The position numbers were made by a program, and so were the translations under genes. Source: Erythrobacter sp. (GTDB lineage Bacteria; Pseudomonadota; Alphaproteobacteria; Sphingomonadales; Sphingomonadaceae). From it: DNA of 64,000 nucleotides. Below are positions 8,366 to 13,734 of the stretch, in pieces. How positions within the stretch are numbered: the stretch's first letter is position 1; each line of letters starts with the position of its first letter. Location: positions 1-64,000 of the forward strand of contig JAHEAV010000003.1 in the NCBI GenBank assembly GCA_024642565.1. Direction: 5' to 3'. The notes beneath the pieces are model-generated. The model made no database searches, had not been told where the DNA came from, and was given only the letters and a program-made list of their open reading frames with translations.

Positions 8366-9487
8366 CTAGACTGCGCGCGGTTCGCTGCCGACAAGTTCAT
8401 GTGTGCAGCCCAGTTTCGCGGCCCCGTCCTTGTCGGACAAGGCTGCCACGGTCCGCCATCCAATCGCTCGCAGGCGGGCGGCTATCTCGGGATCGTGACC
8501 CAAGGGCAGGAACAGCGCATCACGCGCCGCTTCGTCCGGCTGCGCTTCGACCAGAGCTTCAACATACAGGGAAAATCCGGTCGCGGGTTCATGGGTGCCG
8601 CCAATTAAATAGGTGCCCCCCCGCCCCAGCGCACCCCGAACATTTTCAGCGTATAGCGTAAAGCCGAACCAGCTTTGATATTCAAAACCATGCCGCTCGG
8701 TCGGATCAAGCGTGATTCGGGCGCCATTCGCAACGCGTTCGGCAATTTGCCTCAGGCCTGTAATCCGGCTCGCCAATGCACCGCCGGCATCAATCGCGAA
8801 GATCCGCTCAATTGCCTGTTCGAACGGGCCAGTTGCATAGAGGAGCGGCATATAGGCTGCGCCGCCGGGCACTAACGCAAGACCGCCGGCATCCTTGGTA
8901 TCAAGTTCACGCCGGACCCGCGCAACATCTTGCGGGGCAAGCGGTAAAGCTTTGGCAGACAGGACGTCGACCAGATCGGGTAAGGTGAAATCGACCGAAA
9001 TGCCGGTCGCGCCGGCACTTTCCAGCGCTTCGATTGCCAGCGCCACCATCTCGGCAGCGGCCGCCACTGAATCGCTGCCAATCAGTTCGGCCCCCATTTG
9101 CAAACGCTGGCGCGCCGGATCGAGCTGGTCTGCACGGATCAAAGCGACTTCACCGGCATAGCACAGTCGCAAAGGCCGCGCGGCCTGCGCCAGCCCGGTT
9201 GCAGCAATCCGTCCGACCTGTGGGGTCATATCGGAACGGAGCGCCAAGGTACGCAGCGACACCGGATCAACAAAACGGAACATCCGCCGAGTGCTCAATC
9301 CGTCCATGCGAGCAGCCAGCGATTTTTCGAACTCGATCAACGGCGGGCTGACACGGTCATATCCATGGCTGTCCATGACATCGAGCACATCGCGCATGGC
9401 CCGGCTGACCGCCCTCGCTTCACGCGGAAGCCGGTCCCCAAGGCCTTCTGGCAAGAGATCGTTCTGGTCGGTCATGGACACGGACAT
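8366..9487 (-). CDS. hisZ: ATP phosphoribosyltransferase regulatory subunit
   Basis: 373 aa. HisZ is a catalytically dead histidyl-tRNA synthetase paralogue that partners with short-form HisG in the first step of histidine synthesis. The class II synthetase-like core is visible: LLPEGLGDRLPREA at the N-terminus, YDRVSPPLIEFEKSL, RFVDPVSLRTLALRSDMTPQVGRIAA (motif 2-like) and a GRGGTYLIGG segment near residue 290. No hisG lies in the window. AGGTGA touches the chosen ATG; an ATG four codons later is also possible. It lies 89 bp after serA, probably in the same operon (serC-serA-hisZ). Confidence 0.9.
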   Translation of the reverse strand: MSVSMTDQNDLLPEGLGDRLPREARAVSRAMRDVLDVMDSHGYDRVSPPLIEFEKSLAARMDGLSTRRMFRFVDPVSLRTLALRSDMTPQVGRIAATGLAQAARPLRLCYAGEVALIRADQLDPARQRLQMGAELIGSDSVAAAAEMVALAIEALESAGATGISVDFTLPDLVDVLSAKALPLAPQDVARVRRELDTKDAGGLALVPGGAAYMPLLYATGPFEQAIERIFAIDAGGALASRITGLRQIAERVANGARITLDPTERHGFEYQSWFGFTLYAENVRGALGRGGTYLIGGTHEPATGFSLYVEALVEAQPDEAARDALFLPLGHDPEIAARLRAIGWRTVAALSDKDGAAKLGCTHELVGSEPRAV

Positions 9488-9576: not shown

Positions 9577-11160
9577 TCAAAATACCAGCGCATTCACCGT
9601 CTTCACGCCTTCCAGCCTGCATGCCTGATCAATCACCGTCTGCGGAATCGGCTGATCGACCGAAAGCAACAGCACAGCTTCCCCGCCTGCATCGCGCCGG
9701 CCAAGGTGGAAGGTGCCGATGTTGATCCCGTTTTCGCCCAGCAAGGACCCGATCCTGCCGATGAAACCCGGTGCATCCTGATTGACGATATAAAGCATAT
9801 CGCCCTGCAAATCGGCTTCGATGCCCACGTCGAATATCTCGACCAGGCGGGGCGCATTGGCCCCGAACAAGGTGCCCGCAACAGAACGATCACCCTGACT
9901 GGTTTCAACCGTAACCCGCACAAGCGTGTGATACACGCCTTCCCGATCATGCCGGATCTCGCGCACATCCATGCCGCGTTCCTTGGCAAGGTAGGGGGCG
10001 TTGACCATGTTCACCGTATCGGAAAACCGCCGCATCAAGCCAGCCAGAACAGCGGCCGTAATCGGTTTCTGGTTCAGTTGGGCTGCGGCCCCTTCCACCT
10101 CGATGCTGATCTTGGGAAGGTTGCCGTGGGCCAATTGGCCGACCAGCGAACCAAGCTTTTCCGCCAATTCCATATAGGGGCGCAGCTTGGGCGCTTCTTC
10201 CGCGCTGAGGCTGGGCATGTTGAGCGCGTTGGTAACCCCGCCATTGACCAGATAATCGGACAATTGCTCCGCCACTTGCAGTGCCACATTGACCTGCGCT
10301 TCGTCAGTCGAAGCGCCGAGATGGGGAGTGCAAACAAAGTTGGGCGTTCCGAACAGCGGGCTTTCCTTGGCCGGTTCCTTGGCGAAAACATCCAGAGCAG
10401 CGCCTGCAATATGGCCGCTGTCGAGACCTTCCTTCAGCGCCGCTTCATCAATCAACCCGCCACGCGCACAGTTGATGATCCGCACGCCCTTTTTCGTCTT
10501 GGCCAGATTTTCTGCGGACAAGATGTTGCGCGTCTGATCCGTCAGCGGGGTGTGCATGCTGATAAAATCGGCGCGGCTCAACAAACCGTCGAGATCAACT
10601 TTTTCAATGCCCAATTCGATCGCCCGATCTTCAGTCAGAAAAGGATCATAGGCGATCACCTTCATCTTGAGACCAAGTGCGCGGCTGGCGACAATCGAAC
10701 CGATATTCCCTGCGCCGATCAGGCCCAGGGTCTTTCCGGTGACTTCCACCCCCATGAAGCGGTTCTTTTCCCACTTGCCAGCCTGTGTCGAAGCATCAGC
10801 CTCGGGAATTTGGCGGGCAAGCGCAAAGATCATCGCCACGGCATGTTCCGCGGTGGTGATTGAATTGCCGAAAGGCGTATTCATAACCACAACGCCCTTC
10901 GAGGAGGCGTAGGGAATGTCGACATTGTCGACCCCGATGCCGGCGCGGCCAATCACTTTAAGATTGGTTGCCGCGTCGAGCACTTCTTTGGTCACGGTCG
11001 TGGAAGACCGGATCGCAAGACCATCATACTGGCCGATAATCTTGAGCAATTCCTCCGGCGTCTGGCCGGTGATTACATCAACATCGCAGCCGCGCTCTTG
11101 AAAGATACGCGCCGCGTTCGGGTCCATCTTGTCGGAGATGAGTACTTTGGGTTTGGTCAT
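9577..11160 (-). CDS. serA: D-3-phosphoglycerate dehydrogenase
   Basis: 527 aa, the long form of SerA. It oxidises 3-phosphoglycerate with NAD to start serine synthesis. Visible parts: substrate domain (KVLISDKMDPNAARIF), NAD-binding domain with GLIGAGNIGSIVASRA, catalytic Arg in INCARGGLIDE, Glu in FAKEPA and His in TPHLGAST; then the intervening ASB domain and a C-terminal ACT domain (DAPGFIGRIGSLLGENGINIGTFHLGR), the probable serine-sensing part. The ATG at 11160 was chosen because AGGA lies 9 bases before it; an in-frame ATG at 11184 has no ribosome site and lies in a repeat. It is downstream of serC. Confidence 0.96.
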   Translation of the reverse strand: MTKPKVLISDKMDPNAARIFQERGCDVDVITGQTPEELLKIIGQYDGLAIRSSTTVTKEVLDAATNLKVIGRAGIGVDNVDIPYASSKGVVVMNTPFGNSITTAEHAVAMIFALARQIPEADASTQAGKWEKNRFMGVEVTGKTLGLIGAGNIGSIVASRALGLKMKVIAYDPFLTEDRAIELGIEKVDLDGLLSRADFISMHTPLTDQTRNILSAENLAKTKKGVRIINCARGGLIDEAALKEGLDSGHIAGAALDVFAKEPAKESPLFGTPNFVCTPHLGASTDEAQVNVALQVAEQLSDYLVNGGVTNALNMPSLSAEEAPKLRPYMELAEKLGSLVGQLAHGNLPKISIEVEGAAAQLNQKPITAAVLAGLMRRFSDTVNMVNAPYLAKERGMDVREIRHDREGVYHTLVRVTVETSQGDRSVAGTLFGANAPRLVEIFDVGIEADLQGDMLYIVNQDAPGFIGRIGSLLGENGINIGTFHLGRRDAGGEAVLLLSVDQPIPQTVIDQACRLEGVKTVNALVF

Positions 11161-11178
11161 TTCGTTTGATCCTATAAT

Positions 11179-11270
11179 CGTCATGCTGAATTTGCCTCAG
11201 CATCCACCGACCCGTTGAAAATCACGTTCGATGTCGAGAAACAGACCCTGAAGTCGCCTCAGGGTGACGG
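11179..11270. repeat. REP-like double palindrome (REPIN-type) between serC and serA
   Basis: Two imperfectly related palindromes face each other: ATGCTGA-N7-TCAGCAT (11183-11203) and ACCCTGA-N7-TCAGGGT (11245-11265). Both loops are 7 nt and end in GCC, and the outer flanks are inverted copies of CGTCA (left CGTCATGCTGA, right TCAGGGTGACG). This is the layout of a REP doublet. The left half starts 23 bp upstream of the serA ATG. No second copy was noticed in the window. Confidence 0.6.
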
Positions 11271-11275
11271 TGGTT

Positions 11276-12406
11276 TCAGGAATTCGTCAGGCTTGCATAA
11301 GCCCAGTCGAACCATGGCCCCAACGCTTCCACGTCGGCGGTATCGACAGTGGCGCCGCACCAGATGCGAAGACCCGGCGGGGCATCGCGGTATCCGGCGA
11401 TGTCATAGGCCACGTCCTGATCTTCCAGCAGCTTGGCGAATGCCTTGATCATGGCTTCATCCGCACCGGCCACTGTCAGGCATACGCTGGTGTTTGACCG
11501 GATTGCCGGATCGGGCGCGAGATGGCCCAGCCAGTCGCGGCTCTGAACAATTGCATCGAGCGCCTTGGCGTTGGCATTGGCGCGCGCCTTCATCCCCGCC
11601 AAGCCGCCAACCGACTTGCCCCATTCGAGGGCAAAGATCGCATCTTCGACGGCCAGCATCGACGGGGTGTTGATGGTTTCGCCAGTGAAAATGCCTTCGA
11701 TCAACTTTCCGCCCTTGGTCATGCGGAAAATTTTGGGGAGCGGCCATGCCGGGGTATAGCTTTCCAGCCTGTCCACCGCGCGCGGCCCAAGGATCAGCAC
11801 ACCATGGGCACCTTCCCCGCCGAGCACTTTCTGCCAACTGAAGGTCAGCACATCGACCTTGTCCCAGGCGATGTCCTGCGCAAATACGGCGCTGGTTGCA
11901 TCGGCGATGGACAGGCCTTCGCGGTCTGCTGCGATCCAATCGCCATTCGGCACCCGGGCACCGGATGTCGTGCCATTCCAGGTGAAGATCACATCGCTGC
12001 CCCAATTGACCTGGCTCAGGTCCGGGACAAGGCCGTAATCCGCACGAATAATTGTTGGATCGATCTTGAGCTGTTTAACGGCATCTGTGACCCAGCCATC
12101 CCCGAAACTTTCCCATGCCAGGGCAGTTACCGGGCGCTGACCAAGCATGGTCCACATCGCCATTTCGACCGCGCCGGTATCAGAGCCGGGGACAATTCCG
12201 ATGCGGTGCGTGTCTGGCACTTCCAGGACTTCGCGGATCAGGTCGATACACAGCTTCAGCCGCGCCTTGCCCAGTTTGGACCGGTGCGAACGACCGAGCG
12301 AATCGGTTGCCAGTTTGTCGGGGGACCAGCCCGGCGGCTTCGCGCAGGGACCGGAAGAAAAGTATGGACGCGCTGGTTTGCGCGCCGGAGGCGTAAGGTC
12401 AGTCAA
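11276..12406 (-). CDS. serC: Phosphoserine aminotransferase, TTG start
   Basis: 376 aa. It converts 3-phosphohydroxypyruvate to phosphoserine (PLP enzyme) and also serves vitamin B6 synthesis. Typical segments: YFSSGPCAKPPGW at the N-terminus, GRSHRSKLGKARL, VEMAMWTMLGQRP, and the PLP lysine in DVLTFSWQKVLGGEGAHG near residue 190. The sequence resembles the alphaproteobacterial class rather than E. coli SerC. I chose TTG at 12406: AAGGAG is placed 7 bases before it and similarity starts exactly there; the open frame upstream to 12601 looks non-coding. It is the first gene of serC-serA-hisZ. Confidence 0.93.
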   Translation of the reverse strand: MTDLTPPARKPARPYFSSGPCAKPPGWSPDKLATDSLGRSHRSKLGKARLKLCIDLIREVLEVPDTHRIGIVPGSDTGAVEMAMWTMLGQRPVTALAWESFGDGWVTDAVKQLKIDPTIIRADYGLVPDLSQVNWGSDVIFTWNGTTSGARVPNGDWIAADREGLSIADATSAVFAQDIAWDKVDVLTFSWQKVLGGEGAHGVLILGPRAVDRLESYTPAWPLPKIFRMTKGGKLIEGIFTGETINTPSMLAVEDAIFALEWGKSVGGLAGMKARANANAKALDAIVQSRDWLGHLAPDPAIRSNTSVCLTVAGADEAMIKAFAKLLEDQDVAYDIAGYRDAPPGLRIWCGATVDTADVEALGPWFDWAYASLTNS

Positions 12407-12411
12407 AAATT

Positions 12412-12460
12412 CTCTCCTTGCAGAGAGCTCGCGCGGCGTTGGGACCGCGTGGCCCGTCGG
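12412..12460 (-). ncRNA. Structured serC leader with sequestered ribosome site
   Basis: Two hairpins lie immediately before the serC TTG. Hairpin 1 (12455-12441) pairs GGGCC with GG(U)CCC around an ACGC loop. Hairpin 2 (12427-12412) is CTCTCT-GCAA-GGAGAG, six pairs capped by a GNRA tetraloop, and it contains the Shine-Dalgarno AAGGAG itself. A -35-like TTGACT sits at 12490-12485. A serC RNA motif upstream of serC-serA operons in Alphaproteobacteria is known; this leader fits by position and shape, but I could not run a covariance model. Confidence 0.55.
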
Positions 12461-12600
12461 CGTCAGTAGTGGTGCCCGTGGCCAAGTCAAGCGGTGATGC
12501 GCTGCGAACAGTGGGCTACGGGCCAACCAAGGGCGAAATTGCCAGCCGTGGCGCGCACCCCCTCGCCAATCCGGCTCTTCGCGGGTAAGGGCGCAATTCA

Positions 12601-13734
12601 ATGACGATTTCTGACCTACGCATCGCCCTGTTCAGCGGCAATTACAACATGACCCTGGATGGTGCGAACAAGGCACTAAACCGGCTGGTCGATTATTTGC
12701 TGCGCCAAGGCGCATCCGTGCGCGTTTATTCGCCAACTGTGGCCGAGCCCGCTTTTGAACCGAAGGGCGATCTGGTCAGCGTACCCTCTTTCGCCATTCC
12801 GGGCCGCAGTGAATACCGAATGCCGCTTGGTCTGAGTGCCGAGAACCGGGCCGATCTTGAACAATTCGCACCCAACATTCTGCACATCGCCTCGCCCGAT
12901 TTCAGCGCACGGGCAGCGGTACGCTGGGCAAAACGCAGCAACATACCCGTTGTTGCATCGGTCCACACACGGTTCGAAACCTACCCGCGTTATTACCACA
13001 TGGGCTTTCTCGAAGCGCCCATGATTGCCTGGATCAGGGGCCTGTATCGCCGCTGCGACGCGCTGATAACGCCGTCGCAAAGTATGGTCGACGTTCTGCA
13101 AGAGCAGGATATGAACGACGACATTTCGATCTGGTCGCGCGGAGTTGATCGGGCCATTTTCGATCCGGGCAAGCGCGACCTGGTGTGGCGCCGCGGGCTT
13201 GGCATTGCCGACAGCGATGTGGCGATTGCCTTTCTTGGCCGATTGGTGCTGGAAAAAGGTTTGGATGTCTTTGCCGAAACAATCACCGAACTGCGCCGGC
13301 GCCAGATAGCCCACAAGGTGCTGGTAATCGGTGATGGCCCGGCACGCAAATGGTTCGAACAAGCCATGCCCGATGGGATCTTCGTCGGCTTCCAGACCGG
13401 CCAGGACCTGGGGCGCGCCATCGCCAGTTCCGATCTTTTCTTCAACCCCTCGGTTACCGAAGCCTTTGGCAATGTTACCCTTGAAGCCATGGCGAGCGGC
13501 GTTGCAGTGGTTGCCTCATCCGCGACCGGCAGCAAGAATATCGTTCTGGACGGTATCTCCGGCACACTCGTCCACGACCAGTCGTCTCAGGCCTTTGCCG
13601 ACGCCATCGCGCCTTATCTGGCGGATGACGCCATGCGCCATGCCCACGGCGCGGCTGGCGAACAGGCCAGCCGTAATTACAGCTGGGATGCCATCAACCA
13701 GACAGTGGCGGACACCTATCTCCGGCTGATTTAA
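12601..13734 (+). CDS. Glycosyltransferase family 4 (GT-B), mannosyltransferase-like
   Basis: 377 aa, no signal peptide or clear membrane span. GT-B fold: N-terminal acceptor domain with FSGNYNMTLDGANKALNRL and HIASPDFSARAAVRWAK, then VASVHTRFETYPRYY, and the C-terminal donor domain with FLGRLVLEKGLDVFAE, VIGDGPARKWFEQA and the EX7E-like region NPSVTEAFGNVTLEAMASGVAVV. This resembles GDP-mannose-dependent alpha-mannosyltransferases (MgtA-like) and sulfoquinovosyl transferases used in membrane glycolipid synthesis; the sugar and acceptor cannot be told from sequence. It is divergent from serC, sharing the 194-bp gap. Confidence 0.85.
   Translation: MTISDLRIALFSGNYNMTLDGANKALNRLVDYLLRQGASVRVYSPTVAEPAFEPKGDLVSVPSFAIPGRSEYRMPLGLSAENRADLEQFAPNILHIASPDFSARAAVRWAKRSNIPVVASVHTRFETYPRYYHMGFLEAPMIAWIRGLYRRCDALITPSQSMVDVLQEQDMNDDISIWSRGVDRAIFDPGKRDLVWRRGLGIADSDVAIAFLGRLVLEKGLDVFAETITELRRRQIAHKVLVIGDGPARKWFEQAMPDGIFVGFQTGQDLGRAIASSDLFFNPSVTEAFGNVTLEAMASGVAVVASSATGSKNIVLDGISGTLVHDQSSQAFADAIAPYLADDAMRHAHGAAGEQASRNYSWDAINQTVADTYLRLI

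Follow-up and report, generated by a model that had tools for sequence, protein, structure and literature searches.

A serC leader RNA upstream of serC–serA in Erythrobacter and the compact core conserved among its relatives

The leader RNA, its genes and its probable promoter

A 64,000-nucleotide stretch of Erythrobacter sp. DNA (the window, positions 1 to 64,000 of contig JAHEAV010000003.1) carries on its minus strand an element that is almost certainly the serC leader RNA, Rfam family RF00517. When 6001 bases were searched, the Rfam model matched from 12459 to 12407 with 41.6 bits (gathering cut-off 35; E 7.7e-7), end to end (model positions 1–52 of 52), and no other match was found across the whole genome. 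The element lies directly 5′ of serC (11276–12406, minus strand), which encodes a phosphoserine transaminase of 376 amino acids and scores above the cut-offs of two NCBIfam models, NF002841 (623 bits; cut-off 477) and TIGR01365 (591 bits; cut-off 448). Next comes serA (9577–11184, minus strand), encoding a phosphoglycerate dehydrogenase of 535 amino acids (TIGR01327, 672 bits; cut-off 454), which gives the gene context characteristic of RF00517. An earlier note, made from the letters alone and without a strand, had proposed a Sphingomonadales example of the serC motif upstream of serC–serA and had named a search with the Rfam serC model as the check; the match above cut-off on the minus strand, together with the identification of SerC and SerA, confirms that proposal. 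The window's leader is an ordinary copy of an already published family (Corbino 2005).

Two neighboring genes were also seen. A hisZ-like gene (8366–9487) follows serA on the same strand, its best NCBIfam matches falling below their cut-offs, and a glycosyltransferase-like gene (12601–13734; NCBIfam matches below curated cut-offs) is divergent from the serC promoter.

Read from 12455 on the minus strand, the leader RNA is GGGCCACGCGGUCCCAACGCCGCGCGAGCUCUCUGCAAGGAGAGAAUUUUUGACUGACC. It opens with GGG (12455–12453, motif positions 5–7), probably the first transcribed bases and the 5′ strand of the pseudoknot proposed below. The stem-loop P1 (12449–12432), placed by the RF00517 alignment, pairs CGCGGU (12449–12444) with GCCGCG (12437–12432) in six pairs around the loop CCCAAC (12443–12438), of which CCC (12443–12441) is complementary to the 5′ GGG. 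The hairpin P2 (12427–12412) consists of CUCUCU (12427–12422), the GNRA loop GCAA (12421–12418) and GGAGAG (12417–12412), so that the Shine–Dalgarno sequence AAGGAG (12419–12414) is made up of its loop and 3′ strand. The TTG start codon (12406–12404) lies 7 nt beyond AAGGAG and within 11 nt downstream of P2, as expected of RF00517. Thus, the ribosome site sits inside a GNRA hairpin preceded by a second one, P1, just as the earlier note had described. The far border of the span it had given, 12407–12490, is the first base of a −35 box.

That box, TTGACT (12490–12485), and a poor −10 box, TACTGA (12468–12463), form by sequence and spacing a probable serC–serA promoter (12490–12463, minus strand). 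From the start of the window's −35 box to G5 the distance is 35 nt, a spacing shared by most relatives, and the promoter is near-consensus despite its −10 box. Across 172 loci, the distance from the −35 start to G5 was 35 or 36 nt in 115 and different in 28 (partly because the script chose the last TTG-like match), and 29 loci, 25 of them with tandem leaders, gave no −35 match. In 23 of the 25 tandem loci, exactly 35 nt separate the start of the −35 box from the beginning of the upstream copy. The gap between the best −10 box and G5 was 6 or 7 nt in 106 of the 143 loci with a −35 match, and all loci examined have C or T at position 4 followed by G at position 5. A pyrimidine followed by G is common at bacterial start sites. 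Because both the promoter spacing and the bases at positions 4 and 5 fit, the serC mRNA should begin at about GGG (~+1). A narrow search of the openly licensed literature found no measured serC start site in alphaproteobacteria. A table in PMC5596092 lists a 132-nt serC sequence of Mesorhizobium huakuii that begins ~77 nt upstream of the 53-nt motif; if this is a transcript, it is at odds with a start at GGG.

The TTG start codon at 12406, which the earlier note had pointed out, is confirmed. It is an oddity of the window's genome and not of the serC motif: TTG starts occur in 2 of 179 loci with a readable start (the window and the tandem locus L177), and 8 of the 179 have no ATG candidate (TTG in 2, GTG in 6). 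Five congeners (L126–L130) have ATACATG at the aligned place, compared with ATTTTTG in the window. At 12404–12412, the window differs from these congeners at three adjacent bases (TTT in place of ACA), so that TTTTG stands where they have the ATG start region.

Conservation of the stems and distribution of the family

Both stems covary among relatives. The earlier note would have counted its reading refuted had a model match and such covariation both been lacking, and both are present. Over 149 sequences, 892 of the 894 P1 cells hold standard pairs, and five of the six pairs vary on both strands. When P1 was taken together with the three invariant pseudoknot pairs and compared with shuffles, a control that ignores relatedness among the sequences, 99.9% of cells were paired against 83.9% (and at most 67.6% when the strands were slid), and the covariation score was 0.50 against 0.16. 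The number of pairs with two-sided change, 5 against a shuffle value of 4.3 (168 of 500 shuffles as high), is not above chance; the other four measures are. For P2, we used the anchor CTGNRAGG, present in 145 of 155 distinct sequences, since detection by five perfect pairs itself demands complementarity and the anchored test is less biased. The five pairs outside the anchor are formed in 143, 145, 144, 142 and 75 of the 145 sequences, compared with means of 132, 66, 63, 110 and 54 in shuffles that likewise ignore relatedness. Most relatives therefore extend P2 by about four pairs past the anchor, and half add a fifth.

By folding energy, the window RNA does not stand out from its shuffles (z −0.91, with 33 of 200 folding equally well), and its pseudoknot-free minimum-energy fold has no P2; the support for the element consequently comes from comparison and not from energy. 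At the base of P1, the mismatch between positions 10 and 29 is A–C in 141 of 146 distinct sequences, with G–U in 2, G–C in 2 and A–G in 1. No A–U was found there in the rows seen, the replacements being G–U or G–C. This is suggestive, and only suggestive, of a wobble pair A10–C29 that gives way solely to G–U or G–C in the P2-less forms examined.

How widespread is the leader? With a limit of E 0.02, a core model of 28 nt, built from 114 relatives and giving rough E-values, matched 230 of the 246 genomes searched in the order (matches unchecked singly, with about five expected by chance) and 218 of the 223 good ones among them. The Rfam model with strict filters matched at least 111 of the 246; such counts, made over more than 40 genomes, are lower bounds and missed even the window's own genome. 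Class-wide, the core model matched 128 of 385 genomes and the Rfam model at least 114. In a draw of 299 genomes from the phylum, which includes class members in unstated number, the core model matched 71, all labelled as the window's own family or class. Matches within the window's family scored from 39.5 to 47.1 bits, except for one at 54.2, and three genomes of that family had no match in the same search. A score of 41.6 bits is thus normal, and the suggestion that the window's example might be divergent does not hold.

The leader is tied to one gene. Among 150 fetched loci, which come from 147 genomes (three were fetched twice), tblastn places it directly upstream of SerC in 149; the same holds for 13 of 13 further core-model matches, giving 162 of 163 combined. 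The single exception, L125, scores below the Rfam cut-off. In 162 of the 163 matches tested, the partner is one sequence type of SerC. This near-exclusive association agrees with autogenous regulation by SerC as well as with a metabolite specific to the pathway. In Sinorhizobium, Rhizobium, Shinella and Sphingomonas (L233, L234, L236 and L237), serC and its leader stand on records labelled as plasmids; a pattern search detected no leader upstream of plasmid serC genes of Agrobacterium sp. T29, Methylorubrum, Azospirillum and Prescottella.

Leaders without P2, tandem leaders and a proposed 5′ pseudoknot

A canonical P2 is absent from eight relatives that nonetheless retain the core (L123, L124, L226, L228, L229, L230, L251 and L256). 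Fifteen genomes of the class were matched by the core model and not by the Rfam model, namely the window's own, G244 (which the Rfam model did match in the order-wide search) and 13 that were fetched; among these 13, L226, L228, L229 and L230 have no P2 of five perfect pairs. The cores of L251, recognized by eye, and L256 were found among 40 regions upstream of motif-negative serC genes, and no recognizable core was found in the other 38, two regions being truncated. A weak five-pair hairpin is possible in L123, and L122 is ambiguous. Leaders without P2 have an additional P1 pair, between G10 and U29 or C29. These eight relatives indicate that P2 is not essential to the family; the constant part of the serC leader is the core.

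In Kordiimonadaceae, we observed tandem serC elements, with a diverged upstream copy at the promoter followed by a normal copy. There are 25 such loci (seven within L032–L041, ten within L131–L142, L156, and L171–L177), and the two copies begin 51–57 nt apart, except in L177, where the distance is 95 nt. In L175 and L176, the hairpin after the upstream core persists without a Shine–Dalgarno sequence. Of 19 loci returned when named genomes were scanned with a pattern, 17 have a diverged upstream copy before a normal one (Kordiimonas, Eilatimonas and related metagenome bins); the other two, in Pseudonocardia (L161) and Oscillospiraceae (L164), proved unrelated. Neither tandem leaders nor leaders without P2 are described in the accessible portions of the openly licensed serC-motif literature.

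Could the first bases of the RNA fold back onto the loop of P1? The GGG at positions 5–7 and the loop CCC at positions 17–19 are identical in 180 of 180 main copies (rows found with models that favor GGG and CCC), and P1 between them varies. Pairing of GGG with CCC would create a small H-type pseudoknot with the six pairs of P1 and loops of ~3, 0 and 3 nt. From the sequence comparison, we consider this pseudoknot probable. As its pairs are invariant in the main copies, there is no covariation there, and variation at the outer pair, 5–19, was found in the tandem copies. Over the 25 loci, this pair is U–A in 7, C–G in 5, G–C in 3, A–U in 1 and C·A in 9, as read from a structural parse because alignment A3 misplaced L134, L135 and L171 (L171 is U–A only in a shifted register). 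It is thus Watson–Crick in 16 of 25, in four types, against a shuffle mean of 7.7, with 0 of 20000 shuffles as high in a test that ignores relatedness. On a SerC tree of 23 of the 25 tandem loci and 3 loci without a tandem copy, the six pair labels need 11 changes (shuffled mean 15.3), C–G at least two. The outer base of most tandem copies, a pyrimidine, falls at ~+1 and may be outside the transcript. Because of that position, and because C·A is common, the variation supports the pseudoknot without proving it. The pseudoknot may already be published: according to a 2020 review, Greenlee 2018 reported additional conserved sequence and structure for serC.

Control of serC and comparison with known systems

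The leader is very probably a cis-acting element of translational control at or near the 5′ end of the serC–serA mRNA, and that control probably runs through P2, which would keep the ribosome site closed. How often P2 opens would be set by whatever acts on the core, either a serine-pathway effector or the SerC protein. In the portion of Corbino 2005 available to us, the last hairpin was likewise proposed to sequester the ribosome site, and in-line probing in A. tumefaciens supported the two stems. Folding without pseudoknots suggests how the window's genome might couple core and hairpin. The predicted fold pairs the 5′ GGGC with GCUC of the anti-Shine–Dalgarno strand, and forcing GGG and CCC to stay unpaired raises the P2 probability from 0.16 to 0.93. 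Expression would then be off in the pseudoknotted state, which would favor P2, and on in the opened state, with the ribosome site accessible. This particular rearrangement, which comes from modeled folds, is somewhat doubtful even for the window's genome. As a general switch between GGG and the anti-Shine–Dalgarno strand, it was rejected: over 146 relatives, the mean P2 probability rises from 0.67 to 0.82 when the same bases are unpaired, with a rise above 0.3 in only 37, so that such a switch is at best a local variant.

What might the leader sense? The earlier note professed no knowledge of a ligand, in agreement with the 2020 review, which, in the part available, still calls serC an orphan riboswitch candidate. 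A small-molecule riboswitch with an untried ligand (for example, phosphoserine, phosphohydroxypyruvate, 3-phosphoglycerate, glycine or 4-phosphohydroxythreonine) is quite possible, if short of probable. Such a riboswitch agrees with that designation, with the metabolic gene context, with the conserved unpaired core bases (positions 9, 10, 20–22 and 29) and with the tandem copies in Kordiimonadaceae, but only a single gene context has been seen, and the available portion of Corbino 2005 reports that seven serine- or B6-related compounds, including serine, PLP and threonine, had no effect in in-line probing of the A. tumefaciens RNA, one species. Serine and PLP were thus two of the three compounds that the earlier note had put forward for probing; the third, phosphoserine, is absent from the list given there. 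We considered whether the 2005 construct lacked the 5′ strand of the pseudoknot and rejected this, since a construct from −46 probably included GGG, a deduction made by way of the S. meliloti sequence, in which G5 lies 46 nt before the ATG.

The same negative probing with serine, threonine and B6 compounds is what would be expected if the core were a protein site, perhaps for SerC acting autogenously, and no small molecule bound the bare RNA. Corbino 2005 itself, in the part available, suggests a protein, and the small size of the element and its link to serC of one sequence type point the same way. However, many alphaproteobacteria have this SerC type without the core, as in the 38 motif-negative upstream regions above, and we regard protein control as a tentative possibility. 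It is unlikely that nothing is sensed and that a 5′-terminal knot simply stabilizes the mRNA constitutively or fixes a low translation rate; a GGG placed at ~+1 by promoter spacing and held in a hairpin would hide the 5′ end, but a generic stabilizer would need neither conserved bases in the loop nor an almost exclusive tie to serC. The unexceptional folding energy (z −0.91) is what a functionless chance hairpin would give, a reading rendered virtually untenable by the Rfam score, the presence in most genomes of the order and the covariation of both stems.

Returning to a leader that controls serC through its core, we tentatively propose a sensor of ~25–28 nt in which the first transcribed bases fold into a hairpin loop as a pseudoknot, which occurs with or without the ribosome-site hairpin and which is found in tandem before serC in Kordiimonadaceae. 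If this is true, few natural regulatory sensors would be smaller than that of serC, and it would be coupled to the start site. Since 2005, the serC motif has counted as an orphan riboswitch candidate, and a 5′ boundary (GGG at ~+1), a minimal core without P2 and natural tandem copies translate into concrete constructs for ligand and protein searches. The moderate interest of these comparisons lies in giving the hunt for the effector a smaller target with clearer bounds.

The preQ1-I and SAM-II riboswitches are small H-type pseudoknots in which the 3′ tail pairs with a loop. The geometry proposed for the serC leader resembles theirs in being a short H-type pseudoknot close to a ribosome site. 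In the serC leader, in contrast, the strand that pairs with the loop would be the 5′ end instead of a 3′ tail, the ribosome site lies in a separate hairpin, and the motif is an orphan. The leader also resembles the protein-controlled leaders of the PyrR type, a comparison drawn in the available part of Corbino 2005, as a metabolic operon leader that is possibly read by a protein; in contrast to them, its protein partner is only a candidate, perhaps SerC, and control would be at translation. With RF00517 as published (Corbino 2005), the window's leader shares its sequence, the two stems, the GNRA loop over the Shine–Dalgarno sequence, the promoter directly upstream and the order of serC then serA. 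It differs from that description in the TTG start of the window's genome, and the Rfam consensus structure has no pseudoknot, unlike the structure proposed here.
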